DNA of 64,000 bases from Halobacteriovoraceae bacterium (GTDB taxonomy: Bacteria > Bdellovibrionota > Bacteriovoracia > Bacteriovoracales > Bacteriovoracaceae), in assembly GCA_002712005.1 (NCBI GenBank), contig PASP01000011.1, positions 95,483 to 159,482 on the forward strand, in the 5' to 3' direction. Shown one piece after another: positions 13,223 through 29,644 of this stretch (position 1 is the first letter of the stretch; every line of letters starts with the position of its first letter). The position numbers and the translations under genes are program-made. The notes beneath the pieces are model-generated. The model saw only the letters and a list, made by a program, of their open reading frames with translations. It was not told where the DNA came from and did no database searches.

Positions 13223-13262
13223 TAAAAAAATGGAGTGCCGCTAGGCAGTTCAGTTTTAGAAG

Positions 13263-13289: not shown

Positions 13290-13392
13290 ATAATCCTTTA
13301 GGTCTAACTTTTCTAAATTCTAATTTTCTAAAATCTTCTTCTGTTTCTTGAGCTTTAAGTAGAGCAAAAAGCCATTTAAAAATTTTTTTCAC
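13288..13392 (-). CDS. Putative 34-residue small protein
   Basis: A GTG start at 13392 is preceded by AAAGGAG at good spacing and opens a 34-codon ORF: MKKIFKWLFALLKAQE then a strongly charged tail (EEDFRKLEFRKVRPKGL). The short hydrophobic, basic N-terminus could associate with membrane. It converges on the groEL terminator. Support is the strong Shine-Dalgarno only; the family is not recognised. Confidence 0.4.
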   Translation of the reverse strand: MKKIFKWLFALLKAQETEEDFRKLEFRKVRPKGL

Positions 13393-13501
13393 CGTAAAAT
13401 CTCCTTTAAACTATTTTGGCCATTATCATAAATAGCTTAAAGAAATAACAATGAAGATCTTCTTAGTATTGTGAAGAGAATTTTATGTATTTCAGGAATC
13501 T

Positions 13502-13591
13502 ATGAGAGTTAAATTTAAGTCAATTATCCGTGAAAGCTCATCTTTAATCTTCTGCATAGGAGCAATAGCTGTTATACTTTTAGGGTTTTAA
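13502..13591 (+). CDS. Putative 29-residue single-helix membrane peptide
   Basis: ATG at 13502, weakly preceded by CAGGA, opens MRVKFKSIIRESSS followed by a hydrophobic helix (LIFCIGAIAVILLGF) and a stop. The composition (basic front, one TM) is typical of small membrane proteins. It lies 26 bp before lepB and could be its leader or chance. Confidence 0.3.
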   Translation: MRVKFKSIIRESSSLIFCIGAIAVILLGF

Positions 13592-13617
13592 ATAAATGCT
13601 TTTAATAGGGATTACAA

Positions 13618-14355
13618 TGAATTGGGATGCTCAAAAGATAAAAAAAAGAGATTATTTCGTATATTTTGATTTTTGTAGGTGTTTTTGGATTTAAATCAAG
13701 CTTCTTTGAACCCAATCATATTCCCTCTGGTTCAATGCTTCCCACCATGGCCATTGGAGACTTTATTATTGTTAATAAAATGTCTTATGGTTTTAAGCTT
13801 CCTTTCTTTGAGTGGTTTGGTGATCCCGTTTATGTAACAGATTTTAAAGAGCCTGAGCGCGGCGATATCATGGTTTTTGAATTCCCAAAAAATCGTGACA
13901 TTCTCTATGTCAAAAGACTTGTTGGATTACCAGGGGATACGATTGAAGTAATGGATAATCAGGTTTTTATCAATGATAAAAAAGTAACCACTGAGGACGT
14001 CACTCCTGAACAAGCTAAAGAGTTCATGGAACTTTATGATGATAAGGGACGCCCTTTAGATATGAAATTCGAAAAATTTCACAACGGAAAACTTAAGCAT
14101 ATTGTAGCCTATAATGAAGCCCAGTCTATTCATCTGAGTCAACCTAAGAGAACGATCCCTGAGGGACATTATTTTATGATGGGTGATAATAGAGACTTTT
14201 CTTCAGACTCTCGTCGTTGGGGATTTGTTAAGAAGGAGCATATTAGAGGAAAGGCATTATTTGTTTGGTTTAATATGGTTTACCCGTGGTCAGATGAGCC
14301 TTTTCATTTTAGACCTGGTCGTATCGGAACAACATTCTATAACGGTGTAGAATAA
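13618..14355 (+). pseudogene. lepB: Signal peptidase I, frameshifted at an A8 tract near the start
   Basis: From ATG 13618 the reading is MNWDAQKIKK, then a run of eight As shifts it out of frame. With seven As it continues EIISYILIFVGVFGF into the large ORF, giving a ~245-residue enzyme with its N-terminal membrane anchor. The large ORF alone begins at a poor TTG (13666) inside the anchor. Catalytic features are intact: IPSGSMLPTM (Ser nucleophile), YVKRLVGLPGDTIEV (Lys general base) and GDNRDFSSDSR. It cleaves Sec signal peptides at the periplasmic membrane face. The shift may be a homopolymer sequencing error, a real mutation, or be rescued by polymerase slippage on the A tract. No second lepB is visible here. 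Confidence 0.85.
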
Positions 14356-14356
14356 T

Positions 14357-15382
14357 TCAATCAGAGCGATTTCTTTTTTTAAAGCGAGCGAGTGCAAACT
14401 CTTTGGCCAAGGGATCACATCCTGTGTACTCGCCCGTATTGATATAAGCGCTCCCTGAGCTTCTTGAGCAGTCGGTTATAAGCTCACAGTCTTGGCATTT
14501 TTTAAAGTCGGTATCTTGTAAGTCACGAATTCTCTTAAATACAGGTGAATCATTCCATATTTTTACAAGAGAAAGAGAGTGTATATTACCAGCAGGAATA
14601 GGGGATCCAATGCATGGGTATACGTCTCCTTGATGGCCAATCCCAATAACCGTTTTTGCACATCCACACATCAAAGCTTTATCGGGGTTTTTATGATTAA
14701 AGTACTCTTTATAAGGACCATCAAGTAGCTTCTCATATTGATCTTGAGTGATAGCAAGTGTTTGAGAAGCCATTGTTTTATCATACCTATCCGTTATCTC
14801 ATCACTGATCTGGTATGGGCAATCTAGAGACTTAGCTAATTGAATAAACTGATCAAGATATTCCACATTCTGGCGATGTAGAATAATTCCTAAGTTAACA
14901 ACAATTCCGGCTTTTTTTAAAGAATGAATTCCTCGAAGGGTTTTTTCATAACCTTCCTTTCCAGTAAAATCTAAGTACTGTTTTTCATTCACACCATAGA
15001 GGCTGATATCAAACTCTTTCACTCCTAAATGATAAAGCTCTTGGGCTCTTTTCTCTGATACCAAGGTCGCATTCGATTTAATACGAATATGAAAATGATA
15101 TTTCATTGCAAAGAGTATGACTTCGTTTAAATGAGGATAGAGTAATGGCTCTCCACCAGTAAAGGCCAGGGAAAGTGCTCCAATCTCATAAAGTTCATAA
15201 ATCGTTCTCTTTACGAGTTCGGGGGGGAAGGATTCCTTTTTTTGGCTTGGTAAGGACTCTCGATCGAAATTGTAGCAATGCTTACATTTCAAATTGCATG
15301 ACTGAGTCAGCTCTATTGTAGAAAAAAGAGGTTGGAAAATTTGTCTTGCAGATTGAATTTTTCGATCGAGAACATTTGCCAT
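14357..15382 (-). CDS. Radical SAM/SPASM peptide-modifying enzyme (PqqE/RiPP maturase type)
   Basis: 341 residues from the ATG at 15382, which follows the PqqD-like gene's TAA almost directly; a longer TTG-started form would overlap that gene. The radical SAM ligands are Cys29, Cys33 and Cys36 (CNLKCKHCYNF), followed by FTGGEPLLYPHL. A C-terminal SPASM domain has the expected cysteines (CGCAK, VYPCIGSP, CQDCELITDC, GCDP) for auxiliary clusters. Such enzymes install C-C, thioether or epimerised linkages in ribosomal peptides. With the PqqD-like gene and a precursor-like ORF, it is the likely maturase of a RiPP. Confidence 0.88.
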   Translation of the reverse strand: MANVLDRKIQSARQIFQPLFSTIELTQSCNLKCKHCYNFDRESLPSQKKESFPPELVKRTIYELYEIGALSLAFTGGEPLLYPHLNEVILFAMKYHFHIRIKSNATLVSEKRAQELYHLGVKEFDISLYGVNEKQYLDFTGKEGYEKTLRGIHSLKKAGIVVNLGIILHRQNVEYLDQFIQLAKSLDCPYQISDEITDRYDKTMASQTLAITQDQYEKLLDGPYKEYFNHKNPDKALMCGCAKTVIGIGHQGDVYPCIGSPIPAGNIHSLSLVKIWNDSPVFKRIRDLQDTDFKKCQDCELITDCSRSSGSAYINTGEYTGCDPLAKEFALARFKKRNRSD

Positions 15383-15383
15383 A

Positions 15384-15662
15384 TTAATCTTTATGGGGGG
15401 CTGGACAAATGATTGCGAGATCTTCAAGTTCTTTAAGGAACTTGAAGAAATCGTTTTTTACTTCAGGGGTATCTCCATACTGATTTAACAGTAGCTGAAG
15501 AATTTGTTGAGTCGAAACTCCTTGGTAAATTTTCTCAAAAATATAACTACCAATTTGATTGAGGTCGTGGGCTGCTTGTTTACCGTTACTGTCAAGTATT
15601 AGGATTTCATTTTGAATGAAGCGCCAAGAGATTTTAGAGTTTATACTATAGTAAGTTTCCAT
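15384..15662 (-). CDS. PqqD-family RiPP recognition element
   Basis: 92 residues from METYYSINSKISWRF. The pattern (strand, LILDSNGKQAAHDLNQIGSYIFEKI, GVSTQQILQLLLNQYG, then FLKELEDLAII) matches PqqD: a winged-helix fold that binds the precursor leader and presents it to the radical SAM enzyme. It is directly followed by that enzyme. An upstream in-frame start would add 20 residues, but a -10-like TATCAT lies exactly six bases before ATG 15662, supporting the short form. Confidence 0.78.
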   Translation of the reverse strand: METYYSINSKISWRFIQNEILILDSNGKQAAHDLNQIGSYIFEKIYQGVSTQQILQLLLNQYGDTPEVKNDFFKFLKELEDLAIICPAPHKD

Positions 15663-15668
15663 AAGGTA

Positions 15669-15674
15669 ATGATA
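15669..15674 (-). promoter_or_regulatory. -10 box TATCAT of the pqqD-like gene, leaderless arrangement
   Basis: TATCAT, six bases, then ATG at 15662 on the minus strand. TTTACC lies 17 nt upstream as a possible -35. No Shine-Dalgarno is present. The site overlaps the leader of the divergent nucleotidyltransferase gene. Confidence 0.4.
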
Positions 15675-15697
15675 GATAAAATGAGAATAGAGGTAAA

Positions 15698-16603
15698 GTG
15701 AAAGAAGTCTTAGCTTCCCCATTGTTTAGAGAAATTTCTTTGTTGCCAGAGAAAAGAAGAGAAACTGTACTCAAAGAACAAGGAATTGAAGATTTTTTCA
15801 CAATTCATTTTTTTAAAAAAGAATCTCATTCTCAGCTGAAGTACAGGAATGCTCTACTATTAGAGACTGCGTATGAAATTATGGAGGTTCTGAAAAAGGG
15901 AAATGTTAATTTTTGTTTTATCAAAGGCATAGTTTTTCTGGAATCACTTTATCCTAGTTTAGAAGATCGCTTTCTCAGCGATATTGATATTCTTGTCTCT
16001 GAAGATCAGTTTGAAGAAGTAATCTCATTGGTAAAACATAACTTTCCTGAAGCTGATGTCTCTAGAGGCTCTTGGGTTGGCGATGCCCATAAGGTAGAGG
16101 TTCAAATTTCAAATGAATATAACTTAGAAATAACAGTAGAGTTTCATAGCAAACTCTTTTGGCATACAGACTTTTGGGGAACCAGTGAAGTTGTAAAAGA
16201 TAAAGGTCTTTATAGACCAAAAGATGAGGATCACTTCGTTTATTTAATCTATCACTATGCCTTTCAACATAATTGTCAGAAGTTGTATTGGTTACTGGAT
16301 ATACTATATTTCTATCAGGAAAATAAAGACCAGCTCGATTGGGGATATATAAATAAGAAAATTAAAGAGATTAAAATTGTAAGATCATCCTTATTTGTAA
16401 AGAAAATACTGTGTCGAGAGTTTGGAATCAATATGTCACAGTTAAATGGACAAACATGGATTCCTTTTTATAGAAAGTACTTATTAGAAGCCAACCAGAG
16501 AAGTTTATATTATCTTTTTTTAAAGTTTTTTTTAAAAGATAAGATTTTTAAGCAGGGGCTCTTTTACTCGATAAAATGGTTAAAATATTACAGAAAAGAA
16601 TAA
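15698..16603 (+). CDS. Nucleotidyltransferase-fold protein (NTP_transf_5 type) of the RiPP locus
   Basis: 301 residues from a GTG with GAGGT upstream. The region CFIKGIVFLESLYP, then LEDRFLSDIDILVSED, shows the G-x(n)-D-x-D arrangement of nucleotidyltransferases of the uncharacterised PF14907 type. That family recurs in RiPP clusters with PqqD, HPr-kinase-like and S24/S26 genes; its function there is unknown, perhaps nucleotidylation or pyrophosphate chemistry on the precursor. It lies on the opposite strand from its partners, divergent from the PqqD-like gene and overlapping the peptidase gene 3' to 3' by 56 bp. Confidence 0.75.
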   Translation: MKEVLASPLFREISLLPEKRRETVLKEQGIEDFFTIHFFKKESHSQLKYRNALLLETAYEIMEVLKKGNVNFCFIKGIVFLESLYPSLEDRFLSDIDILVSEDQFEEVISLVKHNFPEADVSRGSWVGDAHKVEVQISNEYNLEITVEFHSKLFWHTDFWGTSEVVKDKGLYRPKDEDHFVYLIYHYAFQHNCQKLYWLLDILYFYQENKDQLDWGYINKKIKEIKIVRSSLFVKKILCREFGINMSQLNGQTWIPFYRKYLLEANQRSLYYLFLKFFLKDKIFKQGLFYSIKWLKYYRKE

Positions 16604-16958
16604 CCGATTTAATGAGTTTACGGGTTAGGCTTGAGGATTGAGAGTTATATTGATTAGAAAGTTTCTGTATTGTATTTTTAAAGAAAGGAAATAAAGCATA
16701 ATTTATGTCGGCTCTACCTAGGATTGTTATAGTGCGGTCATAATACAAAGAATTGTCACCCTTCGTTACCCCTGAAGCAAGCTTTCTATGAATAACTATT
16801 TCTCCACTCTCATGGCATTTCACACAAACAATATCACCTACAGTTGATTCAACTTGTGTTTGTATTGTCACAACATCACCATCCCTTAGTAAAGGCCACA
16901 TACTGCACCCTTTAACTTTAATGGTGAAGGGTTTTAGTTCGGGTTTAACTGATTCCAT
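16548..16958 (-). CDS. S24/S26-type serine peptidase, candidate RiPP leader peptidase
   Basis: 136 residues. VKGCSMWPLLRDGDVV carries the catalytic Ser19 in the typical (G)xSMxPxLxxGD box, and GEIVIHRKL supplies His57 where Sec11/SipW-type enzymes use His instead of Lys; KGDNS follows. No clear membrane anchor is seen, unlike housekeeping signal peptidases. Overlap of 25 bp with the HPr-kinase-like gene implies coupled translation. In this locus a role in trimming the precursor is likely. Confidence 0.75.
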   Translation of the reverse strand: MESVKPELKPFTIKVKGCSMWPLLRDGDVVTIQTQVESTVGDIVCVKCHESGEIVIHRKLASGVTKGDNSLYYDRTITILGRADINYALFPFFKNTIQKLSNQYNSQSSSLTRKLIKSVILFCNILTILSSKRAPA

Positions 16959-17824
16959 ATGTCTTTTCTTTTGGGAAAGTAGAGATTTTCAATTTCTTTA
17001 AGATGAGTAATACGATCTGCAAAAGCAAGAATCTGTTCCTCTAAAGTGATATCAATATTCCCTAGAGGAAGATTGGCAAAGGTTGCTAGAAGGAATTTTA
17101 ATTGGTGGATTTGTGCAACTTTTTCAGTGCTATAAAGGTCGCTTTGTATGAGCCAGAAAATGGATTTGACGGGGTATTTTCTATCAAGGCTCACTTGAGG
17201 CTTATAGAGACCTCCGACTCCCCCTGGTGAACAGAAGAGTTGTCCATTTTCAATGTGGAGGACATTCATATCATCAGATAGTATTTTTCTAGGTGAGGCG
17301 AGTTCTGTAATTGTCGTTTTTCCAGCTCCACTTGGGCCAAAGAAGAGAAAAGCCTCTCTTTCGTCTTTAGATAGAATTGCAGAGCTGTGAATCATGGCCT
17401 TGTTTAGTGGAAGTAACTGAGGTGAAAGATACCATCTAAAAAAGTTATGAAGTCCATCATCAAGTTTTGCTTCGAAGGCCGTGTATGTAGTTTGTGAACC
17501 TTTTTCATAATGAGCAATAAAGTCTCTTTGAATAATATAACCGTGATGAAAATGTGTAAGAGAAGATTTCTCATTGTCGAAAGGTTCTGCTTCTGACCAC
17601 TGGGCAACATCAAAATGGAATATAGATTGAGCCCTCGGGTTTGGCTTGGTTAGCCAATCAGACGGGATATATTCTTTTAGTTCTTTAATGAAGTCTTGGT
17701 TGTCGGAGTGAAAAGAAATTTCTATTTCATGAAACCTAAAAGAGAGTTGATAGAAAGTTTGATTATTCTGGGATCTTTGAGCTTGGAGATATTCTATCTT
17801 TTTTTCAAAAAGCTGAAGATTCAT
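16934..17824 (-). CDS. HPr kinase-like P-loop protein of the RiPP locus
   Basis: 296 residues from ATG 17824, which overlaps the precursor's stop (TAATG). FFGPSGAGKTT (about residues 161-171) is the Walker A, and ILSDDMNVLHI gives the Asp pair seen in HPrK/P C-terminal domains; SPGGVGG follows. The N-terminal half is not HprK-like and may bind the peptide. Such stand-alone HPrK-like proteins recur in lasso-type and related RiPP clusters and may phosphorylate a Ser/Thr of the precursor. A phosphotransferase (PTS) role is unlikely, as no ptsH is nearby. Confidence 0.8.
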   Translation of the reverse strand: MNLQLFEKKIEYLQAQRSQNNQTFYQLSFRFHEIEISFHSDNQDFIKELKEYIPSDWLTKPNPRAQSIFHFDVAQWSEAEPFDNEKSSLTHFHHGYIIQRDFIAHYEKGSQTTYTAFEAKLDDGLHNFFRWYLSPQLLPLNKAMIHSSAILSKDEREAFLFFGPSGAGKTTITELASPRKILSDDMNVLHIENGQLFCSPGGVGGLYKPQVSLDRKYPVKSIFWLIQSDLYSTEKVAQIHQLKFLLATFANLPLGNIDITLEEQILAFADRITHLKEIENLYFPKRKDIWNQLNPN

Positions 17825-18036
17825 TATGAATTTAAGCGGTTTGACCGGCAAAAATTTGGAGCACCAACTGAAGCTTTTCGTTTACCTGCAGTCGAACCAT
17901 TACAAGATGCTGCAAAAGCCAATAGGTCTTGGCTTTCTATTTTAGGAGCATGATAAGTGGCAGGCAATTTCGCCTTGTCATCCTGAATATCATTTTCCCT
18001 ATGTTGTTCATTTAAATCTTTATTCTTAACACTCAT
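17824..18036 (-). CDS. Candidate RiPP precursor peptide
   Basis: 70 residues from ATG 18036. A hydrophilic leader (MSVKNKDLNEQHREND) is followed by YHAPKIESQDLLAFAASC, a Y-x-x-P-x-I leader motif running into an Ala-Ser-Cys boundary as in many PqqD-dependent precursors, and then a small-residue core, NGSTAGKRKASVGAPNFC, with Cys45 and Cys63. Its stop overlaps the HPrK-like start, so it is first in the modification operon. Possible modifications are a thioether from either Cys, phosphorylation of Ser/Thr, or C-C links. The product is not predictable. Confidence 0.65.
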   Translation of the reverse strand: MSVKNKDLNEQHRENDIQDDKAKLPATYHAPKIESQDLLAFAASCNGSTAGKRKASVGAPNFCRSNRLNS

Positions 18037-18042
18037 ATTAAA

Positions 18043-18073
18043 ACTATAACATAGCTGAGGAGATAAAGAACAA
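18043..18073 (-). promoter_or_regulatory. Promoter of the RiPP precursor operon, leaderless arrangement
   Basis: On the minus strand TTGTTC (18068-18073) and TATAGT (18043-18048) are separated by 19 nt; the -10 ends six bases before ATG 18036. No Shine-Dalgarno is seen. A 5-bp hairpin (GGGCA/TGCCC, 18085-18098) lies upstream. Confidence 0.4.
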
Positions 18074-18309
18074 GCAAAAAGATAGGGCATTCTTGCCCAA
18101 AACACTTAAATATAAAGCTTTCTTAATAAGTTCCTCTTAAATGTGATGATAATTTTACTAAAGAAGATCTTTCTTCCTAGTAGGAGAAAGTCAATTAATT
18201 TCGATAACTTATAGTTCCGAAACAGATCTTGCGAAAATTAATCCCTCTCCAGAATAGAAGAGAACTTAGATAAAATAATAATTAGAGGTTTAAAGGATAA
18301 AATAACCAA

Positions 18310-21300
18310 ATGTGTCGCACATTTTCATTTTTCTTCATTCGATTACTTCTGACGTTAGTTCTGTATTTTACAGTTCCCAATATTTACGCTCAAGTTCAAG
18401 GTTATGGTGTATTCCAAGGAAATACTACAACAGCTCCTAGTGATGTCGACAATTTATTTCAAGCAAATCCTTATTCGATAAAATGGAATATTGAGAAATT
18501 TGATTCTAGCTATTTTTCTCATTCCAATACTAATTTCTCGCATCAAATTACTTTTGCGACCGCTGGTAATTTTCACCTCTCTTTATCTATTCCATTAGAA
18601 GAGGTGAGTGGAAATAATAGAAGGTCAGTTAGGGCAGAGGTATATATTAATGGCGCCCCTATTGATATAGGAAGAGCTGAGTCTGGTTATATACGAGATA
18701 ATAACGATCACACAAAGAGCTCCCTTCATTTAGATCTCATTTTATCTGACTTAAAAGTAGATGATATTTTAGAAGTTAAAGTGATTAAGGCAACGACACC
18801 TACCGGGAAAGTTCGTACTTCCGGAGCAAAACTTTTTCTACAGTATATAGAACCTGCCAGAGAGGTTCTCTTATTAAAAGGACAGGAGACGATTGCGGGA
18901 GCTAATTTAAACCCCATTAGCGCTACTCCTTTTTCATGGACAGAGACAGAACTGAAAACAGCCGCTTTTTCTCACTCATCAGCAGCAGGACAAAGCGTGA
19001 CGTTTAATCAAAGTGGTGATTATAGAGTATCTTTAAACATTCCTCTTCAAGATCCATCAGGATGTCCTAATTCAAATTATCGATCATCAGCTCAGGCCAT
19101 AATAAAAGTAAATGGTTCTCAAGTAAATTCAGGTAGAGCATCTCAGGGATATATTAGATGTTATGAAGGTCATCAGTTTTCTTCGCTTCATTGGTTTGGA
19201 GTTCTCCATAATATTAGTTCTGGTCAAACTTTGACAGTAGATTTGGTAGGTGAGGCTGATGTAAATCAACAAATTATTATACCTTCATCGAAAAGTGCAA
19301 GCCTTAGTATCGAAAAGCTAGAGTCAGGTATTAAGAAGATTTCTTTATCCGGTAATCAATTAACGACGGGGAATAACTGGAATCCAACGAATGGTGGAAG
19401 TGTACGTTGGAGTAGTTCCATAGAGAAAGATAGCGATGTCTTTTCTCATTCGACATCAACAAATAATCATCAAATTACCTTCAGTGAAAGCGGTGACTAT
19501 TTAATTCTCTATAATGACGTTTTATCTAGTTCTGTTCAGAGGGCCAATCCTACTGTGCAATTTAGATTAAATGGGTCCCTTCCCGATGGTGCAGAATGTT
19601 CGACACATTATGTGAGAAACTTAAATTCTCATAGTGAATCAAGTTGCTCCTTTTCTTACTTATTAGATAATGTCTCTTCAGGGGACCGATTAGACATTGC
19701 TCTTTCTGCAGAAGCCGCTAATGGAACAGTGAATGATAAGAATAATGCGCAATTAACGATTGTCCAAATTTCGAATAATGAGCCAATTGTTGATTTAGAC
19801 AATATCCCTAATAAAATCATTCATTTTGATTCATCTCGATTAGGAGATGTGTTGGATTCGGTAAATCGTAATGCTTCCGATCTTTCCTTTTCTGGAAATA
19901 TTAAAACATTTAAAGATATTTCAGAGAGTGAATTTCCTCACGATGCCGTTCAAACCAACGCAAGTTATCAGCCGGCCTTTAATCCAGAAACTAAGGTGAT
20001 GTCATTTGATGGAGTAAATGATTATTTCTTTATCGATAATGCAGACGATATTAATACAGGTACTACGAGTGAGAGGACCTTTGCTCTCGTGATAAGAACA
20101 GGCTCCGATGTATCAAGTCGTCAGATGATTTATGAAGAAGGGGGAACAGTACGAGGGATTAATATTTATATTGATAATGGATCAATCTATCTTGGGTTTT
20201 GGAATGATACTAATGATGGTGATGGAAGGCAGGGATTTGTAAGTACGAATACTTCAGTTTCTCCAAGAACGAATTATTACATTACTCTTGTCTATGATTA
20301 TTCAAATTACACTGGACCGTCCGGACCAAATGGATTTTTGAGAGGAATGATTAATGGTACTCCATTTACCTTCTCAGGCACAACGACATCAAGGCTTTAC
20401 AACCATCCAGGGAATATTGGTTTAGGAGCGATGAACAATGGTACTTGCTATCACGATAATTCGTGCCCAGGAGGAAATGGTAATTACTTTGGAGGAGATA
20501 TATTTGAATTCATCGCATATAATTCTGCGATTTCTATCGCAATGGAAACAGAATATTACAATTTTCTATCTGAAAAATGGCCCGACCCATTTCCTGTACG
20601 AAATTTATTACTAGATTCTCAATATGTTTCTACTGCATCTTCTTCTCCTCTCATTACTTGGGATTCAAGTATTTCTACAGATGTTACAGATTATGTAGTT
20701 GGAGTAGGTTCTAATGAAACAAATGATGATGTTCAAGCCTTTACAAGTGTAGGTAATATTAATTCAACAACTGTAAGCGGATTGAATTTAACGGAATGTT
20801 CCAGCTACTATGTTTTAGTTAAAGCTGTAGATAATGAACTCAAAGAATCGACAGTGGAGAGCAGTGTCTTTTTTAAATTCGATGGCACAATCCCAAGTGA
20901 CCCCCAATCTCTAATATCAACAGGTGTTGCCTCAACAGCTCAATCTCCTGACTTTAGTTGGCAACCAGCTGTTGATAACTGTAGTCTTGAAAAATATGAG
21001 GTAGCACTTGGTTCTACTAGTGGTGGTGATGAAATTGAATCTTGGATTGATATTGGTACTAATTTAAACCATACTTTTAGAAATCTAAATTTGAATCTAG
21101 CAACAGATTACTACTTCTCAGTTCGGGCCATTGATGCTGCAGGAAATATTTCACAAGTTGTTTCATCTGCATCTTTTCAAGTCGATTCTTGTGCATCAAC
21201 TGACAGTACAAATCCTTCTGACCCTAGTGGGTTAACAATATCAGGCTCTGCCGGAGCAACTTATTCACCCACACTTAGTTGGAATACAAGTACTGACAAT

Positions 21301-24300
21301 TGTGGTATTAGTCACTATGAGATTGCAATCGGATTAAGTCCTGGAGCAAGTGATGTTAAGAGTTTTACTTCTATATCTGACACAAATAACCACAAATTCT
21401 ATAATCTTTCCCCACCTCTTTTAACAAATACAAATTATTATTTTTCATTAAGGTCTGTTGATCTTGCTGGAAATGAATCTTCTATTGTCTCTTCGAGTGC
21501 ATGGTTATTAGATGGTCCAGGAGGGGTGAACTCAGGAATCTTACTGTGGCTTGATGCCAAAGATGAAAACTCATTTTATCAAGCTAATGATTGTAATTCG
21601 AATCAAGTAACTGCTAATGGACAAAGCATTGGGTGTTGGAAGGATAAATCTTCCAACTCGAATCATGCTGTTGCGAGTGGAGGACAAAGACCACTATTTC
21701 AAACAAATGAGTTTAATGGCGCTAGTGTTGTACAATTTGACGGGTCCAATGACCGCTTGTCTTTTCCCGACCTTAATAATATCCGGACAGCTTTTTTTGT
21801 AAATAAATCTCTTTCTACGAGTTATCAACCATTCTTGGGTCATTCGAGTTCAAATGACTGGTTTACAAATGATGACAGTTTACTGAGTTCCTCTGCCGCG
21901 AGCGCCTTGAGAAATGGAAACTGGAGAGTGTCACGAGTTGATGTAGAAAATCCTCTTCTTTATACCCAAAGTGGTCAGTTCAGTATTACATCTGTAGTCA
22001 GTACAGGGAATGTGTCGGCGAATCACCTTTCTTCTGATCGCTTGCAAAACGGTCGCTTCTTTAATGGACAATTTGCAGAAGTTATTCTTTTTGATCGAGC
22101 ACTAACTCATTCCGAAATAAATGATATTGAAAATTATCTTTATAATAAGTGGTTCTCAATTGCTCCTGAGCAGCTAAGTGGCCTGAGCCTATCATCAGAG
22201 TTTACTGCTATTTCTAATCAGTCACCAGTTCTTACATGGAACGACTCTACAGCATTAGACTTTTCTCACTATGAAGTAGCGTTGGGAGATTCTCCTCATA
22301 CGAATAATATTGCGGGATGGCTGAACAATAATGCAACCAATAGCTTTTCTTACAATTCCTTCAATTTTACTGAATGTACCGATTATTTCTTAAGTGTACG
22401 AGCTGTGGATAGTGATGGAAATATTGGTGAGTCGGCGAGTAGTAATGGTTTTAAGTATGATGGCACAAACCCATCTGGTGTACCCCAAAGCTCGATTTCT
22501 CTGACGGGAGAAGCTTCAATAAGTACCTCACCTATTTTATCTTGGGCTTCGGCAAGTGATAATTGCCAAATTGGTACATATGAAGTCTCCCTTGGTACCT
22601 CGTTAGGCTCAGATGATGTAAGAAGTTGGCAAGATATTGGTAATGTGAATGAGTATCAATACACAGGCCTTTCACTAACTTCTTCAGTAGACTATTTCCT
22701 TAATATTCGGGCCAAAGATGCAGCAGGAAATTTATCGATTTCTAAAAGTTCTGATGCTTGGCAAGTTTCTAATTGTGTGGCTTCAGATACTACGAATCCT
22801 TTACCACCAACATCAGCTTATTTCACGGGAGAAGCCTCTTTGAGGCAGTCTCCTGTATTGTATTGGAGTCCGGGGAGTGATGAGTGTTCCTTTTCTCCCC
22901 ATGAAGTCTCTGTTGGAGTTTCTCCAGGAGATACAAGTATAAGCTCATGGTTGGATGTGGGGGCTCTAGGAAGTTATCAATTTAACCTAAATCAGAACTT
23001 AACTTATGGACAAAATTATTTTTTCAATATTAGGGCCGTTGATCTCGCTGGTAATTATTCAACTGTTCTTTCAAGTTCAGCTTGGAGTTTAAATACTCCT
23101 GGTAATGTAAATCCTCTCGGTCTTAATTTATGGATTGATGTCGATGATTCTGAAACTCTATTTACTGATCAAGCTTGTTCTAATGCCGTCGCAAATAATT
23201 TTGCTCCCGTTGGTTGTGTTAAAGACTTAAGTGGTAATGACAATCATTTAACTATTGGAAGTAATTCCAATAAACCAACTTATATTAATCGCTATTTTAA
23301 TGATAAATTTGGTCTCTATTTCGATGGTGGCTCTAATGAGTTTTTAAACTTTACGAATACTTTAAGTGATATTCGTACTGTTTTTTGGGTAATTAAAGAA
23401 GACGTAGCAAATGCTGGAAATAGCGCGCCTCTATTGGGTGACAATAATGGAACGACTCGTGATTTTAGAAGGGCTTCAACACTAGGTCCATTCTTTTCAA
23501 GTTCAGCAGCAGCGCAGGTAAGAAACGGAAACTTACGACTTAATCAAAGCGATATTAATGGTCAGGTCGTTTCGGTACCTACGTCAGAATCTGTCGTTTC
23601 TCTAGTAACCCAATCAAATGCTACAGCATCAAGTTTTTCCAGAGATAATCTAAGCTGCTGTGGAAATCAAACGTTTGGTGGTGTTTTAGCTGAACTCATT
23701 ATTTTCAATAGAGCTCTAAGTACCAACGAAGTTGAAGATATTGAAAATTATCTTATGACGAAATGGAATATATCAGTTGATTCCACGGAATGGGTTGGTG
23801 GTGTGAGTTCTGACTGGAATAATGCATCTAATTGGTCAAACGGAGTTCCCACTTCTCAAATGGATTGTGTCATAGCAGATCGAACATTTGACCCTGAATT
23901 GAGTGGTGGAGGACATAGTTGTCAAAATTTATTTTTGAATTCAGGTAGTCTTACTTTTCTTAATTCAACAGCAGCTCGTTTAGAAATTTATGGGAATATT
24001 GAAATTAATTCTTCAAATACATCTCTTAATATTAATGATGGTTTAATTAATCTAAAAGACGATGGTTCCAATTCTACAGATCAAATGATCAACTCTGGTA
24101 ATCATACTATGAGATTAGATTTCACTAAATCAGCAGGGGGGAAGGTCACTGTATCACATGATGCGGAACTTCTCGATTTTGAATTACCCTTAGGGGGGAG
24201 TTTTGAATTTGAGGTATCCAGCGGAGTGACTCTTGAACTTCCTCAAGGACTCGTTCAAAGAGGAGCGAGTTTTAATCTTCTTGGAGGAGCCAATTTATTT

Positions 24301-27300
24301 ATTGCTGATGGACAAGGTATCTTGGTTGAAGGTGGAACATTCAAGATTTCAGGTATAAATGATTCTTTGGATCAGAACTTAACAAATAAAGGTCATATTT
24401 TTTCTGATGGAAGATGGAGTTTTGAGGCAACTGGTGGAGGAGTTAGCTTTACTGGTTTTATAATTGATAGAGTTGATGTCAATGGTATTGTTCTTAGTGG
24501 GGACTCTAATTTATTGAGTTTTGACGGAGGGCAATTTGTTCATCTTGTAGAGGATTATATCACTCCTGTTAGGGCCCTTCAGCTAAATACTTCTTCAATC
24601 ATAAGTGAAACAATAGCTAGAAATGTAGGTTTTAATTGGGGAGTGGCCAATTCGGGCTATAGGGGAAATCCTACTTCAGTAGATAATTACTTTCTTGTTT
24701 ATGCACCTAACTGTGGAGGGGGAACTCTTATCTTTGATCAATGGTTTGGTGACTTTTGGGGGGAAAGTGAATCTTTCGATACCGAGCTAAAGCTATATGA
24801 TAATGAGGATGGTGGAAACTGTACTCTAAATATGGATATTGCAGCTTCTCCAGTAACTCTAACTGACATGAGTGCTACTGGTTTCGATCAAAGTATATTA
24901 ATTGAATGGGAAACAGGGTCTGAATTAAATCATCTTGGCTTTAATATCTATCGATCCGAAAGTCCTAACGAAGGGTTCGCCCAAATTAATCAAGACCTCA
25001 TTAGAAACTACCTAACATCTGGAGATTTTAAAGGACGTTATCGATTTGAAGATAAAGAGTTAGATAATGATAGAGTCTACTATTACCTCATAGAAGATGT
25101 CGCAACTGATGGGGAAAGGAAACTTCATGGTCCTGTTTTCGCAAGAACATCTCAAGATGCAGGTGATATTCCTTTACCTGACTCAAATACAAATAGACCC
25201 ATAGATGAGCCTGGGGCAGTTGATTTAGGTGGCGGTGTAAGTTTGTTAACACAAATTAAGGGAAGTTTCAGAGTTTCTATTAATCCTGCAACTCTAACAG
25301 CTTCATTGAGTTCATGGGATAGTGATTACTTAGATTTAGAAATTCCTGGTTATGCTAAGTTTGGTAATGTAGGAAGTCCTGCTCTTTTAGAAAAGAAAAT
25401 TTTAATCCCTGTTTCAGATGCTTATTCATCTGTTGTTTCTGAACGTTATTCAATTACGACAAGCGATGAATCATCGATTTTATCAAATAAGAAAGTTACT
25501 CCAAATCCAAGCTTTGCTACAGATGCATCAGGTGTGCAGAGACCACTTTACTCGATAGATGGAGAAGCTTATGGGCTCAATCAACTTCTACCAGAGAATT
25601 GGTATGAAATAAGCTCCCAAACGGTGAGTATATTAGGTAAACATTACGTTGAAATTATCGTATTCCCCCTAAAGTATAATCCCTCTACAGATGAATTAAC
25701 TAAACTGAATCAGATTATTCTTGATGTTGGATTAGAAGGAAGAATATGGAGTAGAGATCCCAATGAAAGTACTCATACCGTTTCTCCAAATATTGCCGAA
25801 GGGGCCCTGACGATCTCTTATCTTAAAGAAGGAATGTATAAGATTTCTTATGATCAACTCATTGCTGAGCATTTAGCAGGCCCGTTTGACGAATTAGAGG
25901 TCTCTCAAATTCGAGGCTATTATCACAATAAAGAAATCCCTCTTCTTATAGAATCAAGTGACAACTATTTTAATAGTGGTGATGAAATTATTTTCTTTGG
26001 GAAGTATATCGAATCACTAGAGGATCTAAGTGATAATGTGGTTATTAGTCCATATGCGATAGTCAATGACGATGTAGATGAGGGAGATCCTCTAAGAATA
26101 AAAAATCTAAAACCCTTGAATAACTCTTTTACGTCATTAAGAGAAGCATCTCTTGAAACAATTGTTTTTTCGGATGATCAATATGCTGTATTCGATAATC
26201 CTTTAGGAAATGGTTTCGACCATTTATACATGAAGAGAATCTATACTCAAAATGGTGCTGGAATAAATTCGAACTCTCGTCTTGTACTAAATGCTGATAT
26301 CGATGAAGCAGACCAGAATCAAGAAGAAATCCGAATCAGCGTAGACTTGAGTGGTAGAGGTGTATTAGAAGATAACCCCAAACACAATCTAAGATTAACG
26401 GTTAATGGGATTGATGTTGAAGATATTAGTTTTCAAATTAATACTCCTGTATCAATAGACTTTTATGTGCCTCTTCATTATTTCCTAGATGGCAGTAATG
26501 AAATTACTCTTACTGCTTTAGGTAATCTTGTCTCTCCTGGCGACTATGATCTCTTGGATATAAATGAAGTACAAATTACTTATGAGAGAAAATTAATCTA
26601 TGATCGTGAACAAGTCATTCTCAAAGGTGGTTCTGGAGGACAGAAGGTTGAAGTATTCGGAATGGGGTCTTCAGATGTCAGAGTCTTTGATATTGGCGAT
26701 TCATCGAATGTCTTTGAGTATCAAGAAACCTATATCGATAGTTTTGATAACGGTACGAGCTACCTTGTAACTTTTAAGTCTCTTTTTGGAGGATCAAATA
26801 ATTCTGGGGGGGACCAGATCCTAGTTAGGGATAATGAATTTTTTGAGCCCAATCAAATTGAACTTAACTATGGTAGAGATATCCTTCTTCGCAACTATGA
26901 GAATGATTTTGATTACATCATCGTGGCAAAATCGCATTTAATACCCAGTGCTAGAAGACTTGCAGATTATCGTGGTCAAGATGGATTTAATCCCTTGGTG
27001 ATTTCATTTTCTCAAATTTATGATGAGTTTAATCATGGAAGAGTTTCTTCTTATGCCATTAATGAATTTCTCCAATATGCTTATACAAATTGGAAAACGA
27101 AACCAAAATATTTATTTCTATTGGGAGATGCTTCTTATGATCCTAAAGATAGATTAGGGATTATGGGTAAAAACACTGAACCAATTTTTCTAACTTCAGG
27201 AGTTGATAACGACTTTGGTTCAGATTTTTCACTTGGTATTTTAAACTTTGGAGAGGAAGATGAAAGTTTAAGGCCTTATTTATCGATTGGGCGTCTACCT

Positions 27301-28224
27301 ACTGATGATCTATACCTTATTGACTCCTATATTGATAAGTTAATTGATTTCGAAACAGGTTCGGTTAGTCCAATTCAGAATGTAAAAAAATTCGATTTTA
27401 TAATTGGGCAAGGATCCGAAAATGAAAATTTTACTAAAATGGCTTTAGAATTAGGAAACACCGTTCTTTCTTCCAATAGAGAGTTTTCGCTAGAAATGAT
27501 AGATCATAAAGATTATGCGGATAGTGAACTCATGAATGATGAAGTGATCGCTTCCTTTAATGATTCTCCTTTATTTTTGACCTATCTTGGGCACGGAGCA
27601 GAGGATCTATGGGGACTAGATGGTTTCTTCGAGGCAACTCATGCTGATTCATTAGAAAATATGGAAACGCCCATTGTTATAGGACTAAATTGTTTAAATG
27701 GATACTTTTATGATCCAGACGAAACTTGGTATAGTTTAGGGGAAAGCCTTGTTTTAAATCCTAATCACGGAGCAATCGCATTTTACGGATCGACAAGTTT
27801 AACAAGTCCTCAGTCTCAAATTAAATTGGCGACAAGCTTTTTCTCATTATTTGGACAAAAAAGTAAAACCCATCAAACTGATGTGCGACTCGGTGAAGTC
27901 ATGCTTTCATCAAGTCTATCACTTTCTAATAATGAAGTAGATTCAGAGATGCTTAAGAGTTTGATTCTCTTTGGGGATCCAGCTTTAAAATTTCCAGAAG
28001 GAGCATTTTCTAAGCCTATTGCTCCTCCAAAAAGTGCTCTTCCTAAGGAAACGGTGGTTGAAAGTACGAGTTCTGGGGGAGGCTGTTCTCTTCTCGCTGA
28101 TACAGGTGCAGGATCAAAGACAAGTTCACCGATAGATTATTTTTATTATCTAATTGAAGTTCTACTCTATATTCTTATTTATCGTAGAGCAAAGAAGCAT
28201 TTTCTCTTAGCGAAGCGTTTTTAA
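18310..28224 (+). CDS. Giant secreted multidomain adhesin-like protein with C25 (gingipain-like) peptidase and C-terminal sorting tail
   Basis: 3304 residues. Signal peptide (to about residue 27). Three ~150-residue beta repeats follow (about 30-495, each with FSHS and a YIR or YVR motif). Then come LamG/concanavalin-like domains (about 500-770, 1070-1285, 1600-1825) separated by blocks of ~95-residue fibronectin-III-like repeats (FNIRAVDLAGN-type motifs). A W-x(n)-NW-x-NGVP beta region starts near 1827, then a GFNIYRSE FnIII-like domain near 2200, and a C25 peptidase domain from about 2865 (LFLLGDASYDPKD). Catalytic His3095 (YLGHGAED) and Cys3128 (GLNCLNG) are intact. The end carries SSGGGCSLL (Cys3259), a membrane helix and YRRAKK, a sorting signal. 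It is probably a surface protease/adhesin. Start: AAAGGA ten bases upstream. Confidence 0.88.
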   Translation: MCRTFSFFFIRLLLTLVLYFTVPNIYAQVQGYGVFQGNTTTAPSDVDNLFQANPYSIKWNIEKFDSSYFSHSNTNFSHQITFATAGNFHLSLSIPLEEVSGNNRRSVRAEVYINGAPIDIGRAESGYIRDNNDHTKSSLHLDLILSDLKVDDILEVKVIKATTPTGKVRTSGAKLFLQYIEPAREVLLLKGQETIAGANLNPISATPFSWTETELKTAAFSHSSAAGQSVTFNQSGDYRVSLNIPLQDPSGCPNSNYRSSAQAIIKVNGSQVNSGRASQGYIRCYEGHQFSSLHWFGVLHNISSGQTLTVDLVGEADVNQQIIIPSSKSASLSIEKLESGIKKISLSGNQLTTGNNWNPTNGGSVRWSSSIEKDSDVFSHSTSTNNHQITFSESGDYLILYNDVLSSSVQRANPTVQFRLNGSLPDGAECSTHYVRNLNSHSESSCSFSYLLDNVSSGDRLDIALSAEAANGTVNDKNNAQLTIVQISNNEPIVDLDNIPNKIIHFDSSRLGDVLDSVNRNASDLSFSGNIKTFKDISESEFPHDAVQTNASYQPAFNPETKVMSFDGVNDYFFIDNADDINTGTTSERTFALVIRTGSDVSSRQMIYEEGGTVRGINIYIDNGSIYLGFWNDTNDGDGRQGFVSTNTSVSPRTNYYITLVYDYSNYTGPSGPNGFLRGMINGTPFTFSGTTTSRLYNHPGNIGLGAMNNGTCYHDNSCPGGNGNYFGGDIFEFIAYNSAISIAMETEYYNFLSEKWPDPFPVRNLLLDSQYVSTASSSPLITWDSSISTDVTDYVVGVGSNETNDDVQAFTSVGNINSTTVSGLNLTECSSYYVLVKAVDNELKESTVESSVFFKFDGTIPSDPQSLISTGVASTAQSPDFSWQPAVDNCSLEKYEVALGSTSGGDEIESWIDIGTNLNHTFRNLNLNLATDYYFSVRAIDAAGNISQVVSSASFQVDSCASTDSTNPSDPSGLTISGSAGATYSPTLSWNTSTDNCGISHYEIAIGLSPGASDVKSFTSISDTNNHKFYNLSPPLLTNTNYYFSLRSVDLAGNESSIVSSSAWLLDGPGGVNSGILLWLDAKDENSFYQANDCNSNQVTANGQSIGCWKDKSSNSNHAVASGGQRPLFQTNEFNGASVVQFDGSNDRLSFPDLNNIRTAFFVNKSLSTSYQPFLGHSSSNDWFTNDDSLLSSSAASALRNGNWRVSRVDVENPLLYTQSGQFSITSVVSTGNVSANHLSSDRLQNGRFFNGQFAEVILFDRALTHSEINDIENYLYNKWFSIAPEQLSGLSLSSEFTAISNQSPVLTWNDSTALDFSHYEVALGDSPHTNNIAGWLNNNATNSFSYNSFNFTECTDYFLSVRAVDSDGNIGESASSNGFKYDGTNPSGVPQSSISLTGEASISTSPILSWASASDNCQIGTYEVSLGTSLGSDDVRSWQDIGNVNEYQYTGLSLTSSVDYFLNIRAKDAAGNLSISKSSDAWQVSNCVASDTTNPLPPTSAYFTGEASLRQSPVLYWSPGSDECSFSPHEVSVGVSPGDTSISSWLDVGALGSYQFNLNQNLTYGQNYFFNIRAVDLAGNYSTVLSSSAWSLNTPGNVNPLGLNLWIDVDDSETLFTDQACSNAVANNFAPVGCVKDLSGNDNHLTIGSNSNKPTYINRYFNDKFGLYFDGGSNEFLNFTNTLSDIRTVFWVIKEDVANAGNSAPLLGDNNGTTRDFRRASTLGPFFSSSAAAQVRNGNLRLNQSDINGQVVSVPTSESVVSLVTQSNATASSFSRDNLSCCGNQTFGGVLAELIIFNRALSTNEVEDIENYLMTKWNISVDSTEWVGGVSSDWNNASNWSNGVPTSQMDCVIADRTFDPELSGGGHSCQNLFLNSGSLTFLNSTAARLEIYGNIEINSSNTSLNINDGLINLKDDGSNSTDQMINSGNHTMRLDFTKSAGGKVTVSHDAELLDFELPLGGSFEFEVSSGVTLELPQGLVQRGASFNLLGGANLFIADGQGILVEGGTFKISGINDSLDQNLTNKGHIFSDGRWSFEATGGGVSFTGFIIDRVDVNGIVLSGDSNLLSFDGGQFVHLVEDYITPVRALQLNTSSIISETIARNVGFNWGVANSGYRGNPTSVDNYFLVYAPNCGGGTLIFDQWFGDFWGESESFDTELKLYDNEDGGNCTLNMDIAASPVTLTDMSATGFDQSILIEWETGSELNHLGFNIYRSESPNEGFAQINQDLIRNYLTSGDFKGRYRFEDKELDNDRVYYYLIEDVATDGERKLHGPVFARTSQDAGDIPLPDSNTNRPIDEPGAVDLGGGVSLLTQIKGSFRVSINPATLTASLSSWDSDYLDLEIPGYAKFGNVGSPALLEKKILIPVSDAYSSVVSERYSITTSDESSILSNKKVTPNPSFATDASGVQRPLYSIDGEAYGLNQLLPENWYEISSQTVSILGKHYVEIIVFPLKYNPSTDELTKLNQIILDVGLEGRIWSRDPNESTHTVSPNIAEGALTISYLKEGMYKISYDQLIAEHLAGPFDELEVSQIRGYYHNKEIPLLIESSDNYFNSGDEIIFFGKYIESLEDLSDNVVISPYAIVNDDVDEGDPLRIKNLKPLNNSFTSLREASLETIVFSDDQYAVFDNPLGNGFDHLYMKRIYTQNGAGINSNSRLVLNADIDEADQNQEEIRISVDLSGRGVLEDNPKHNLRLTVNGIDVEDISFQINTPVSIDFYVPLHYFLDGSNEITLTALGNLVSPGDYDLLDINEVQITYERKLIYDREQVILKGGSGGQKVEVFGMGSSDVRVFDIGDSSNVFEYQETYIDSFDNGTSYLVTFKSLFGGSNNSGGDQILVRDNEFFEPNQIELNYGRDILLRNYENDFDYIIVAKSHLIPSARRLADYRGQDGFNPLVISFSQIYDEFNHGRVSSYAINEFLQYAYTNWKTKPKYLFLLGDASYDPKDRLGIMGKNTEPIFLTSGVDNDFGSDFSLGILNFGEEDESLRPYLSIGRLPTDDLYLIDSYIDKLIDFETGSVSPIQNVKKFDFIIGQGSENENFTKMALELGNTVLSSNREFSLEMIDHKDYADSELMNDEVIASFNDSPLFLTYLGHGAEDLWGLDGFFEATHADSLENMETPIVIGLNCLNGYFYDPDETWYSLGESLVLNPNHGAIAFYGSTSLTSPQSQIKLATSFFSLFGQKSKTHQTDVRLGEVMLSSSLSLSNNEVDSEMLKSLILFGDPALKFPEGAFSKPIAPPKSALPKETVVESTSSGGGCSLLADTGAGSKTSSPIDYFYYLIEVLLYILIYRRAKKHFLLAKRF

Positions 28225-29025
28225 TCTTACACCTTTTTTACGATAGATTTTAAGAGCATATTTCATCGCTTTATAACTGATGATCATGGCGATTAATCCT
28301 ATTGCGAGAATATAACATAGACTTGATAAGTATGAAGTAATACTGAGAATCTTCTCTGCACTTAAGATCAGTCGAGTTTGTTTGACAAGATAGAAGAAGG
28401 GGTTGAGTCCTGATATTAAACCTGTGAAAAACTTCGGAAATACTGCAATTGGAAAATAAGCACCAGATGTAACGGAAAGCAATGTAGTTATAATTCCTGT
28501 TACAGAGCTTCCACGGCGAAAATGAATGTAAAGCGCACAATTGATCAGGCCCAGAGAAATAAAAAGTGGGAGGGCCATGATATTTAGCAAGAGAGCAAAT
28601 AAGAACTCGATAAATCCGAAAGAATAGTTAGAAATAATGAAGAGTATGAGAAGCTCAACAAATAAAAAGAGCCCACTATATAAGAGAGAACTTATTCCTT
28701 TATTTAAGATAATTCTGAAAAAAGGGGTCTTAGTATTTAAAAGGGTATCAAAAATCCCATTGCTAATAATAATTCGTGTATGTTGATTGAAAAAAACGAG
28801 AGCATCGCATGCGAGCCTTAAAGTCAGGTCTCCAATGATAATATACTCAAAAACATTCACATGATTAAGGTCTGTGAAAGTCTCGGAGAGGTTATAGGCT
28901 TTTGAAGCAAAAAATAGAAAGAGTATATTGAATATAATCGACAGGAATCTAAAGAGAATGATTTGATAAGATGAGAAATTATTTCTCCTTTCGAGAATGA
29001 AAAAAAGGATTAAGGAACTAAGCAT
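28207..29025 (-). CDS. ABC-2 type exporter permease
   Basis: 272 residues with six hydrophobic segments and a TRLILSAEKILS-type cytosolic turn, the layout of ABC-2 permeases. It overlaps its ATPase gene by 8 bp. Its stop overlaps the end of the giant gene by 18 bp in convergent orientation. The substrate is unknown; export of the nearby RiPP, or of a lipid or polysaccharide, are options. Confidence 0.8.
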   Translation of the reverse strand: MLSSLILFFILERRNNFSSYQIILFRFLSIIFNILFLFFASKAYNLSETFTDLNHVNVFEYIIIGDLTLRLACDALVFFNQHTRIIISNGIFDTLLNTKTPFFRIILNKGISSLLYSGLFLFVELLILFIISNYSFGFIEFLFALLLNIMALPLFISLGLINCALYIHFRRGSSVTGIITTLLSVTSGAYFPIAVFPKFFTGLISGLNPFFYLVKQTRLILSAEKILSITSYLSSLCYILAIGLIAMIISYKAMKYALKIYRKKGVRLKTLR

Positions 29026-29644
29026 TTTGAATTCCTTTTCCTGTTAGGAGAATCTTCGAATAGGTTTTCATAGAGTCTTGAATCTTATGATCAGTTACCC
29101 AAACGAGATGGTCCTGAGAGAGAGCTTCTAAAATTTCGGTGACCCTGTCTCTGTTTTTTTCATCCAAGCTTACAAAAGGTTCATCAAAGAGGTAAAAATG
29201 GGCGTCTTTAGTTAAGGCAATGGCAATGTTAATCAGCTGGCGCATTCCTGTCGAGCATTCACCATAGCGGGTAATCAAGGCTTGTTGAAAACTATCACTC
29301 TTATTTAATATCTGCATCCATAATAAATCTTCTCTATATTCTCTTTGATTCAGCTGAAAAAATAAGCGAAGAGTTTCCCTACCTGTAAGATTAGGAAAGG
29401 AGCATTCATTTTGAGTTTGAAGTAAAGATATTTGGTTTTCACTTAAGGGATGGCCCTTTACATGAATTTGACCGGAGTGAGCTTGAGCTAATCCTCCCAA
29501 AATTCTCAGAAGAGTAGTCTTACCTGATCCATTTTCTCCTATAAGATAGAAGAGCTCTGCACTAGGGCAATGAAAGGATAGATTTTCAAAGAGAAGTTCT
29601 TTCTGGTTTGGATAGCGGAAACTAAGATTTTCTATATTCAACAT
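29018..29644 (-). CDS. ABC transporter ATP-binding protein
   Basis: 208 residues, a single nucleotide-binding domain. Walker A is IGENGSGKTTLLRI. The signature region reads YGECSTGMRQL, where CSTGM replaces the usual LSGGQ, followed by Walker B YLFDEPFVSLDE and the H-loop WVTDHK. The short length resembles CcmA-type ATPases. It pairs with the permease downstream. The non-canonical signature suggests a divergent exporter; the substrate is not known. Confidence 0.88.
   Translation of the reverse strand: MLNIENLSFRYPNQKELLFENLSFHCPSAELFYLIGENGSGKTTLLRILGGLAQAHSGQIHVKGHPLSENQISLLQTQNECSFPNLTGRETLRLFFQLNQREYREDLLWMQILNKSDSFQQALITRYGECSTGMRQLINIAIALTKDAHFYLFDEPFVSLDEKNRDRVTEILEALSQDHLVWVTDHKIQDSMKTYSKILLTGKGIQNA

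Follow-up and report, generated by a model that had tools for sequence, protein, structure and literature searches.

A precursor gene overlaps a kinase gene within a nine-gene module

The window analysed here, a 64,000-nucleotide stretch of DNA from Halobacteriovoraceae bacterium (assembly GCA_002712005.1, contig PASP01000011.1, positions 95,483 to 159,482 of the forward strand), carries at 14357-29644 a gene module for a ribosomally synthesized and post-translationally modified peptide (RiPP), an assignment that is supported by its gene content and conservation. A precursor peptide gene of 70 codons (17824..18036, minus strand), recognized by its translation, homologues, alignments and purifying selection, overlaps the gene of a 296-residue PEPCK/HPrK-fold kinase (16934..17824, minus strand), which was assigned from a His-Lys-Asp-Asp alignment and a predicted model and starts inside the precursor stop codon, i.e. 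in the TAATG junction seen in the sequence the stop lies at 17826-17824 and the kinase ATG at 17824-17822. The precursor has the layout Y28-x-x-P31-x-I33 ... F41-A42-A43-S44-C45-N46-G47 ... C63 ... S70, and its C-terminus reads LPATYHAPKIESQDLLAFAASCNGSTAGKRKASVGAPNFCRSNRLNS. The original prediction, a RiPP locus of open product class at 14357..18036, had noticed the TAATG overlap and, in the 70-residue open reading frame (ORF), the Y-x-x-P-x-I motif, the Ala-Ser-Cys boundary, Cys45 and Cys63, with all of which the sequence and its translation agree. The PqqD, SPASM radical SAM, nucleotidyltransferase and S26-like peptidase genes that it named are in place as well, with Pfam matches to PqqD, Radical_SAM plus SPASM, NTP_transf_5 and Peptidase_S24; its extent was drawn too short, the module reaching 29644 with a C25 gene and two ABC genes.

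The 70-residue ORF is a real precursor gene. No Pfam or NCBIfam family matched it at E ≤ 1; a phmmer search of 5.8 billion proteins returned 19 matches, the window's own ORF among them, and a profile built from 22 diverse precursors drew 202 clusters at E ≤ 1, of which the best 120 were listed. The organism-named matches listed were all Bdellovibrionota (Bacteriovoracaceae, Halobacteriovorax, Bdellovibrionales, Oligoflexia and Bdellovibrionia), most matches being unlabelled. Within the phylum, the precursor family is present in 35 of 368 genomes, belonging to the families labelled f1, f8, f11, f17, f19 and f20. The match in one of these genomes (G283; G and L numbers are our labels for genomes and loci) is weak, contains a stop and is not trusted. 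Across six genus members, codons Y28-S70, taken without one inserted codon, are under purifying selection (pN 0.19, pS 0.78, pN/pS 0.24). Together, the phmmer homologues, the presence in 35 of 368 genomes and the purifying selection discard a chance ORF.

A shallow search for relatives outside the phylum found none among the listed organism-named matches to the precursor or the kinase, most of the matches being unlabelled, and scanning genome contigs for two peptide patterns brought up four loci only, each assigned to Bacteriovoracia by its title or family name. A conserved promoter was also sought in the intergenic region between the precursor and C25 genes of five genus members, where no clear block was seen.

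The precursor core is nearly fixed and ends in a hydroxyl residue

Residues were counted in 155 precursors (119 of the 120 listed profile matches, the window ORF and 35 locus ORFs), of which 144 are distinct in their last 60 residues. The N-terminal part varies in length and sequence, conservation begins at Tyr28, and the second half, with two Cys conserved in the core, is nearly fixed in sequence. The motif L..[FYV][AG]A.C[NG]G is present in 137 of the 144 distinct precursors, and beyond the positions that it imposes Tyr28, Pro31 and Lys54 are fixed (137/137 each), followed by Arg53 (136/137) and Gly51 (135/137). Exactly seven residues follow the last Cys in 140 of 144, and the peptide ends in Ser in 142 cases and in Thr in two, the latter being the diverged precursors of G090 and G106. 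Even the seven precursors that lack the motif, i.e. that of G221 (Val for Leu38) and the diverged ones of G090, G106, G238, G243, G259b and G310, all terminate in Ser or Thr. Among the 137 tabulated precursors, only the terminal position always carries a hydroxyl residue, Ser or Thr occurring at position 48 in 106 and at position 56 in 117; within the core, Ser70 alone is invariant in this sense.

The leader motif Y28-x-x-P31-x-I33 (17938..17955, minus strand) is the predicted binding site of the RiPP recognition element (RRE), a role taken over from the RREs of lasso peptides and of the linear polyphosphorylated peptides (LPPs), a family described by Popov et al. 2026 (published May 2026; PMC13381572). 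Counted over the 144 precursors and not imposed by the motif, the residue at Tyr+13 is Phe in 120, Tyr in 17, Val in two and another residue in five, and by our own count the published LPP motif YxxPxVLxHQxIxFET has the same Tyr-to-Phe spacing of 13. Because an aromatic residue stands at Tyr+13, as in LppA (PMC13381572), the leader cut was placed after Ala43, and cleavage at this site by the signal-peptidase-like protease of the module is thus predicted by analogy; the predicted core, delimited by conservation and this putative cut, comprises residues 44-70 with Cys45, Cys63 and the terminal Ser70 (17827..17907, minus strand).

The maturation genes accompany the precursor

The module was followed in 42 stretches from 39 genomes, chosen for holding a precursor or kinase match and searched with hidden Markov models made from the window proteins; many of the stretches stop at contig ends, and most of the genomes are multi-contig drafts. 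The precursor was found in 36 stretches, the kinase in 39, the radical SAM enzyme in 36, PqqD in 33, the nucleotidyltransferase in 32 and the S26-like protease in 31, with the ABC permease, the ABC ATPase and the C25 protein in 22, 24 and 14, respectively. The first six were jointly present in 26 of the 42, together with both ABC genes in 17, and all nine in 12. Precursor and kinase co-occurred in 34 stretches, and their frames lay at most 150 nucleotides apart in 32 of these, G022 and G106 being the two exceptions. Homologous short ORFs beside such enzyme sets, for which the original prediction had proposed to search, do therefore exist. Among the 368 phylum genomes, 37 carry the kinase, 33 of them in common with the 35 that carry the precursor (Fisher 3e-40, a value that ignores shared ancestry). 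The S26-like and nucleotidyltransferase genes are absent beside the kinase in G001, G002 and G003.

The original prediction had also raised the case of the enzymes being kept with a different precursor elsewhere: this was seen only at the edge of the family, where other short ORFs lie beside the distant kinases of G310, G361 and G028, no systematic search for a second precursor having been made at the main loci. These related kinase loci (L127 in G310, L135 in G028 and L128 in G361) have differing short ORFs that keep Y-x-x-P; the G310 locus has three radical SAM genes and a peptide ending in Ser, and the candidate of G028 also ends in Ser, that of G361 in Cys. A kinase-based RiPP class in Bdellovibrionota looks wider than the present family.

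The kinase and its likely target

The kinase gene, HPr-kinase-like in the original prediction, bears out that description with PEPCK_ATP as its only Pfam match (27.2 bits against a cut-off of 26.5) and a PEPCK-type P-loop fold in its predicted model (pLDDT 95.2). No HPrK entry stood among the fold matches listed for the model, a listing that covers part of the matches, and a profile search of the PDB gave weak PEPCK matches along with P-loop matches that look like chance. H147, K170, D185 and D186 are invariant in all 85 aligned kinases (the window's and 84 of the 120 listed), the first sequence of this alignment beginning one codon before the ATG; by eye, ATG 17824 is the likelier start. PadeK-type lasso kinases need His-Lys-Asp-Asp, and the residue that PadeK phosphorylates is the Ser at the C-terminus of its precursor peptide (review PMC9266682). 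By analogy, Ser70 is likely phosphorylated by the PEPCK/HPrK-fold kinase of the module.

A giant C25 protein co-occurs with the precursor

Upstream of the precursor and on the opposite strand lies the gene of a giant C25 (gingipain/PorU-type) protein of 3304 residues (18310..28224, plus strand), assigned by its domains, an alignment and co-occurrence. It has, by eye, a signal-peptide-like start, then Fn3/LamG-type domains, a C25 propeptide and a C25 domain. NCBIfam PorU models match it over ~700 residues, the PorU equivalog at 174.2 bits, below the cut-off of 420. The catalytic H3095 and C3128 were each retained in 30 of 30 aligned C25 frames from 27 genomes. A Gly-Cys followed by a hydrophobic stretch and basic residues (28075-28221 in the window) ends 30 of 33 giant C25 frames, the other three being cut by the stretch end and the tail being nearly the selection criterion of the 30. 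This tail resembles a C-terminal sorting tag; no search was aimed at a sorting enzyme.

C25 domains occur in 96 of the 368 phylum genomes, many of the listed frames having ~500-1100 residues. Giants were defined as open frames of at least 1400 residues among the matches listed, a threshold chosen after viewing the list, and this scope holds for all giant C25 counts here. At least 30 genomes carry a giant, 27 of them with the precursor and 28 with the kinase, so that the precursor is present in 27 of 30 giant-C25 genomes versus 8 of 338 others (Fisher 1e-30, again ignoring shared ancestry). The eight precursor genomes in which no giant was listed are G001, G004, G256, G260, G090, G106, G238 and G283; the assemblies of the first four are in many contigs, that of G001 having a contig end inside its C25 gene. 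G085, in 600 contigs, has the giant and the kinase, and the precursor was not found there. In G002 and G003, of the same genus as the window, the S26-like, nucleotidyltransferase, permease and ATPase genes directly follow the C25 gene, the S26 frame overlapping the C25 end, and therefore we count C25 inside the module. The link of C25 to the precursor is strong but not absolute.

Other enzymes, exporter and neighbouring genes

The radical SAM/SPASM enzyme (14357..15382, minus strand; start likelier at ATG 15382 by eye) was identified by Pfam Radical_SAM and SPASM, and the three radical SAM Cys are retained in 36 of 36 aligned enzymes. It scored under the cut-off of every NCBIfam model listed (25 of 91); the solved relatives of its profile include SkfB (E 9.8e-32) and 5v1q, a SuiB-type enzyme. 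The same core is accompanied by two or more subtypes of the radical SAM enzyme that differ in their SPASM Cys patterns (the window versus L072, L073, L113, L114 and L116), which looks like an exchange of maturase with the product left unchanged.

Next to it lies the PqqD-type RRE (15384..15662, minus strand; start likelier at ATG 15662 by eye), which matched PF05402 over its cut-off (E 6.3e-8) and among NCBIfam models scored best with a lasso PqqD model, whose cut-off of 80 bits it missed with 21.9. A second PqqD-like gene adjoins the kinase in four loci (L071, L109, L111 and L112), and the two RREs may divide the labour. SynChlorMet and HPr-rel-A cassettes are known sets of kinase and PqqD genes; the former was rejected with no ScmC match at E ≤ 1 and PqqD against ScmD at E 0.1, and the latter with the HprK_rel_A model matching the kinase at E 0.014 only.

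The nucleotidyltransferase of the NTP_transf_5 family (PF14907, E 2.3e-28; 15698..16603, plus strand) keeps its KG, R, DxD and ExH each in 32 of 32 aligned sequences. The annotated nucleotidyltransferase PsmN has been tied to hexoses on phospho-Ser (PMC9266682). The signal-peptidase-like serine protease (S26/S24 type, Pfam Peptidase_S24; 16548..16958, minus strand) has S19, H57 and D68 each conserved in 31 of 31 and matched the archaeal signal peptidase model TIGR02228 at E 7.2e-7 (29.2 bits, under the cut-off of 51.85). It is less likely to serve as a peptidase of the C25 tail, being found also at the loci of G106 and G238, genomes in which no C25 match was listed. An ABC-2 type permease (PF01061, ABC2_membrane; 28207..29025, minus strand) and an ABC transporter ATPase (PF00005, ABC_tran; 29018..29644, minus strand) complete the module.

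Past the ABC genes, a Matrixin-like (Peptidase_M10) metalloprotease with, by eye, a Cys and hydrophobic tail is encoded at 30594-31406 (plus strand). Upstream, 11214-14355 (plus strand) holds groES- and groEL-like ORFs (by eye) and a signal peptidase I (13666-14355) that scores as an ordinary lepB. In 14 stretches no groES or lepB match and one marginal 34-residue groEL match were found; these genes, being practically unmatched there, were placed outside the module. Glycosyltransferase-like genes (by eye, cluster c7) lie near the module in 12 of 33 mapped stretches (e.g. L070, L107 and L113) and recall the LPP clusters near capsule loci.

A proposed pathway and its alternatives

We propose, with a probability of roughly 0.6 for the pathway as a whole, that the precursor is modified by the radical SAM enzyme, phosphorylated on Ser70, cut after Ala43 and exported to act with the C25 protease. 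Gene content, conservation, catalytic residues and co-occurrence are observed, and the kinase fold comes from a predicted model. PqqD would bind the YxxPxI leader and present the precursor (the order of steps being conjectural), and the radical SAM enzyme would act on the Cys45-Cys63 segment, where a Cys thioether is our tentative guess, held at somewhat under even odds. The kinase would then phosphorylate the invariant C-terminal hydroxyl residue, and the PF14907 enzyme might load this phosphate with a sugar or nucleotide. The Ser/His/Asp protease, assisted by the RRE, would cut F-[AG]-A|x-C-N-G, and the ABC-2 pair would export the ~27-residue product. Once outside, the product may be processed or received by the C25 protein, which has a catalytic His/Cys pair and, by eye, an export signal and anchoring-type tail.

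Several observations weigh against this pathway. The S26-like protease was not found in G001, whose contig ends within the C25 gene, and the Asp-Asp pair of the kinase differs in six diverged loci. A cut after residue 42, or one after Gly47, would obey the (-3,-1) rule of signal peptidases, each in all 137 motif-bearing precursors, a fit that is partly imposed by the motif used to collect them. The radical SAM chemistry is not readable from the enzyme, because at least two subtypes accompany the same core. Finally, LppK, the nearest studied non-lasso kinase, phosphorylates Ser3 of the core and not the C-terminus (PMC13381572), so that the case for Ser70 as the target is made by conservation and by analogy to the lasso kinases.

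On that precedent, the kinase could target a Ser/Thr near the core N-terminus, with the terminal Ser being kept for something else, e.g. recognition by C25 or the exporter. The frequent Ser/Thr at positions 48 and 56 would offer such sites. Neither position is invariant, however, in contrast to the terminal Ser/Thr (144/144, Thr only in the diverged G090 and G106), and the residue at the LppK Ser3 position is Asn46 here, therefore the kinase must act elsewhere; we regard an N-terminal target as unlikely. About equally unlikely is that the C25 gene is a bystander, under a selection of its own and functionally unrelated to the peptide. Its distance from the precursor in several genomes would fit this, and so would two further points against the proposed pathway, namely that G090, G106 and G238, whose precursors are diverged, had no C25 match listed and that G250 and G276 carry a giant C25 with neither precursor nor kinase. 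Against a mere neighbour, the genome-wide association holds even where the genes are unlinked, C25 is embedded in the module in G002 and G003 and also in G022, where it sits between precursor and kinase, and G006, of the same genus, has no precursor, no kinase and no giant C25 among the matches listed.

Somewhat less probable still is that the radical SAM enzyme suffices to make the peptide, as a bacteriocin or a signalling RiPP of the sactipeptide/ranthipeptide class, and that the kinase and nucleotidyltransferase are regulatory or serve immunity. The solved relatives SkfB and 5v1q and the two conserved core Cys speak for it; the kinase is, however, in 33 of the 35 precursor genomes and next to the precursor in nearly all stretches that hold both, the terminal Ser/Thr is kept even in diverged cores, and so fixed a core would be unlike that of an arms-race bacteriocin. 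A paeninodin-type lasso cluster with unrecognised cyclase genes, which the YxxP-type leader, discrete RRE, kinase and nucleotidyltransferase and the RRE's sub-threshold lasso PqqD match would recall, is very improbable, since the B2 peptidase domain Transglut_core3 (PF13471) was found in none of eight genomes searched, Asn_synthase (PF00733) matched in all eight and never at the locus (the nearest being a 24.6-bit scrap ~9 kb off in G000), as the original prediction's failure to see a lasso cyclase had anticipated, and no Asp/Glu is conserved in the core.

Within the proposed pathway, a long shot is that the peptide is a fixed-structure, sugar-phosphate-capped molecule for the giant C25 protein, cut or transferred at the cell surface, and not a secreted antibiotic. 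If true, a sortase-like surface protease would here, for the first time, have a RiPP as its substrate, cofactor or anchor, and this in a predator phylum.

Significance and comparison with known systems

Bdellovibrionota are home to many bacterial predators. The family occurs under six family labels, and its core, near-fixed in most of the genomes, looks more like a cofactor or a dedicated partner than a diversifying antibiotic; the tie to the giant C25 offers, for the first time to our knowledge, a candidate protein partner for such a peptide. The full set seems to be present in a named strain, Halobacteriovorax sp. HLS, which could make the question testable if growable. The core from residue 44 has a calculated mass of 2700.234 Da unmodified, 2778.185 Da with -2H +HPO3, 2776.169 Da with -4H +HPO3 and 2938.222 Da with a hexose added to the last. 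The phosphorylation toolkit of LPPs and paeninodins, which the LPP authors describe as restricted to Bacillota (PMC13381572), seems to reach a distant Gram-negative phylum, where it is joined to a radical SAM enzyme. The original prediction had called the locus new, and it is indeed undescribed in the literature searched (open-licence papers, with the broadest result lists covered in part); its set of kinase, RRE, nucleotidyltransferase and signal peptidase does resemble the published LPP family (PMC13381572).

The giant protein shares with PorU and the gingipains the C25 domain with its His/Cys pair, the C25 propeptide and the matches to PorU models, and differs in falling far under the PorU cut-off, in its giant Fn3/LamG-type N-terminal part, in the Gly-Cys tail and in co-occurring with a RiPP. 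With sactipeptides and other RiPPs of radical SAM/SPASM enzymes (SkfB, SuiB and PqqE) the locus has in common the maturase and a Cys-bearing core, and a PqqD-type RRE occurs in some of these systems, whereas the kinase, nucleotidyltransferase and serine leader peptidase are additional here. Like the paeninodin/pseudomycoidin lasso peptides (PMC9266682), it combines a terminal Ser (Ser 142 and Thr 2 of 144) and a His-Lys-Asp-Asp kinase (85/85) with a nucleotidyltransferase and a [Y/W]xxP leader with RRE; unlike them, it has a signal-peptidase-like protease and a radical SAM enzyme, with no B2 peptidase found and no cyclase at the locus in the eight genomes searched.

The closest likeness is to the LPPs, whose clusters encode an RRE, an HprK-like kinase, an NTP transferase and a SpI-like leader peptidase with no lasso cyclase, and whose biological role is stated by their authors to be unknown (PMC13381572). 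Their peptidase LppS uses S29/H68/D93, needs the RRE and depends on Phe at -3 (PMC13381572). The present locus likewise has an archaeal-type, Ser/His/Asp SpI-like leader peptidase (its cleavage being predicted), a discrete RRE, an HprK-like kinase, an NTP transferase (by PF14907), an exporter, a YxxP leader with an aromatic at Tyr+13, and no macrolactam cyclase. From the LPP precursor motif YxxPxVLxHQxIxFETxxS, it keeps YxxPx[IVL] and the Tyr+13 aromatic, and not HQ, ET or Ser. It differs further in its phylum, in its radical SAM/SPASM enzyme ('radical SAM' occurs 0 times in PMC13381572), in a core that is conserved, carries two Cys and closes with Ser where LPP C-termini are variable, in having Asn46 for the LPP phosphosite Ser3, in separate ABC2_membrane and ABC_tran genes instead of an MsbA-like exporter, and in the giant C25 partner. 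Because the exporter type and the precursor motif and phosphosite depart from those of the LPPs, we do not file the locus as an LPP; we read it as an LPP-like variant, whose tailoring would work like that of the LPP and paeninodin types.

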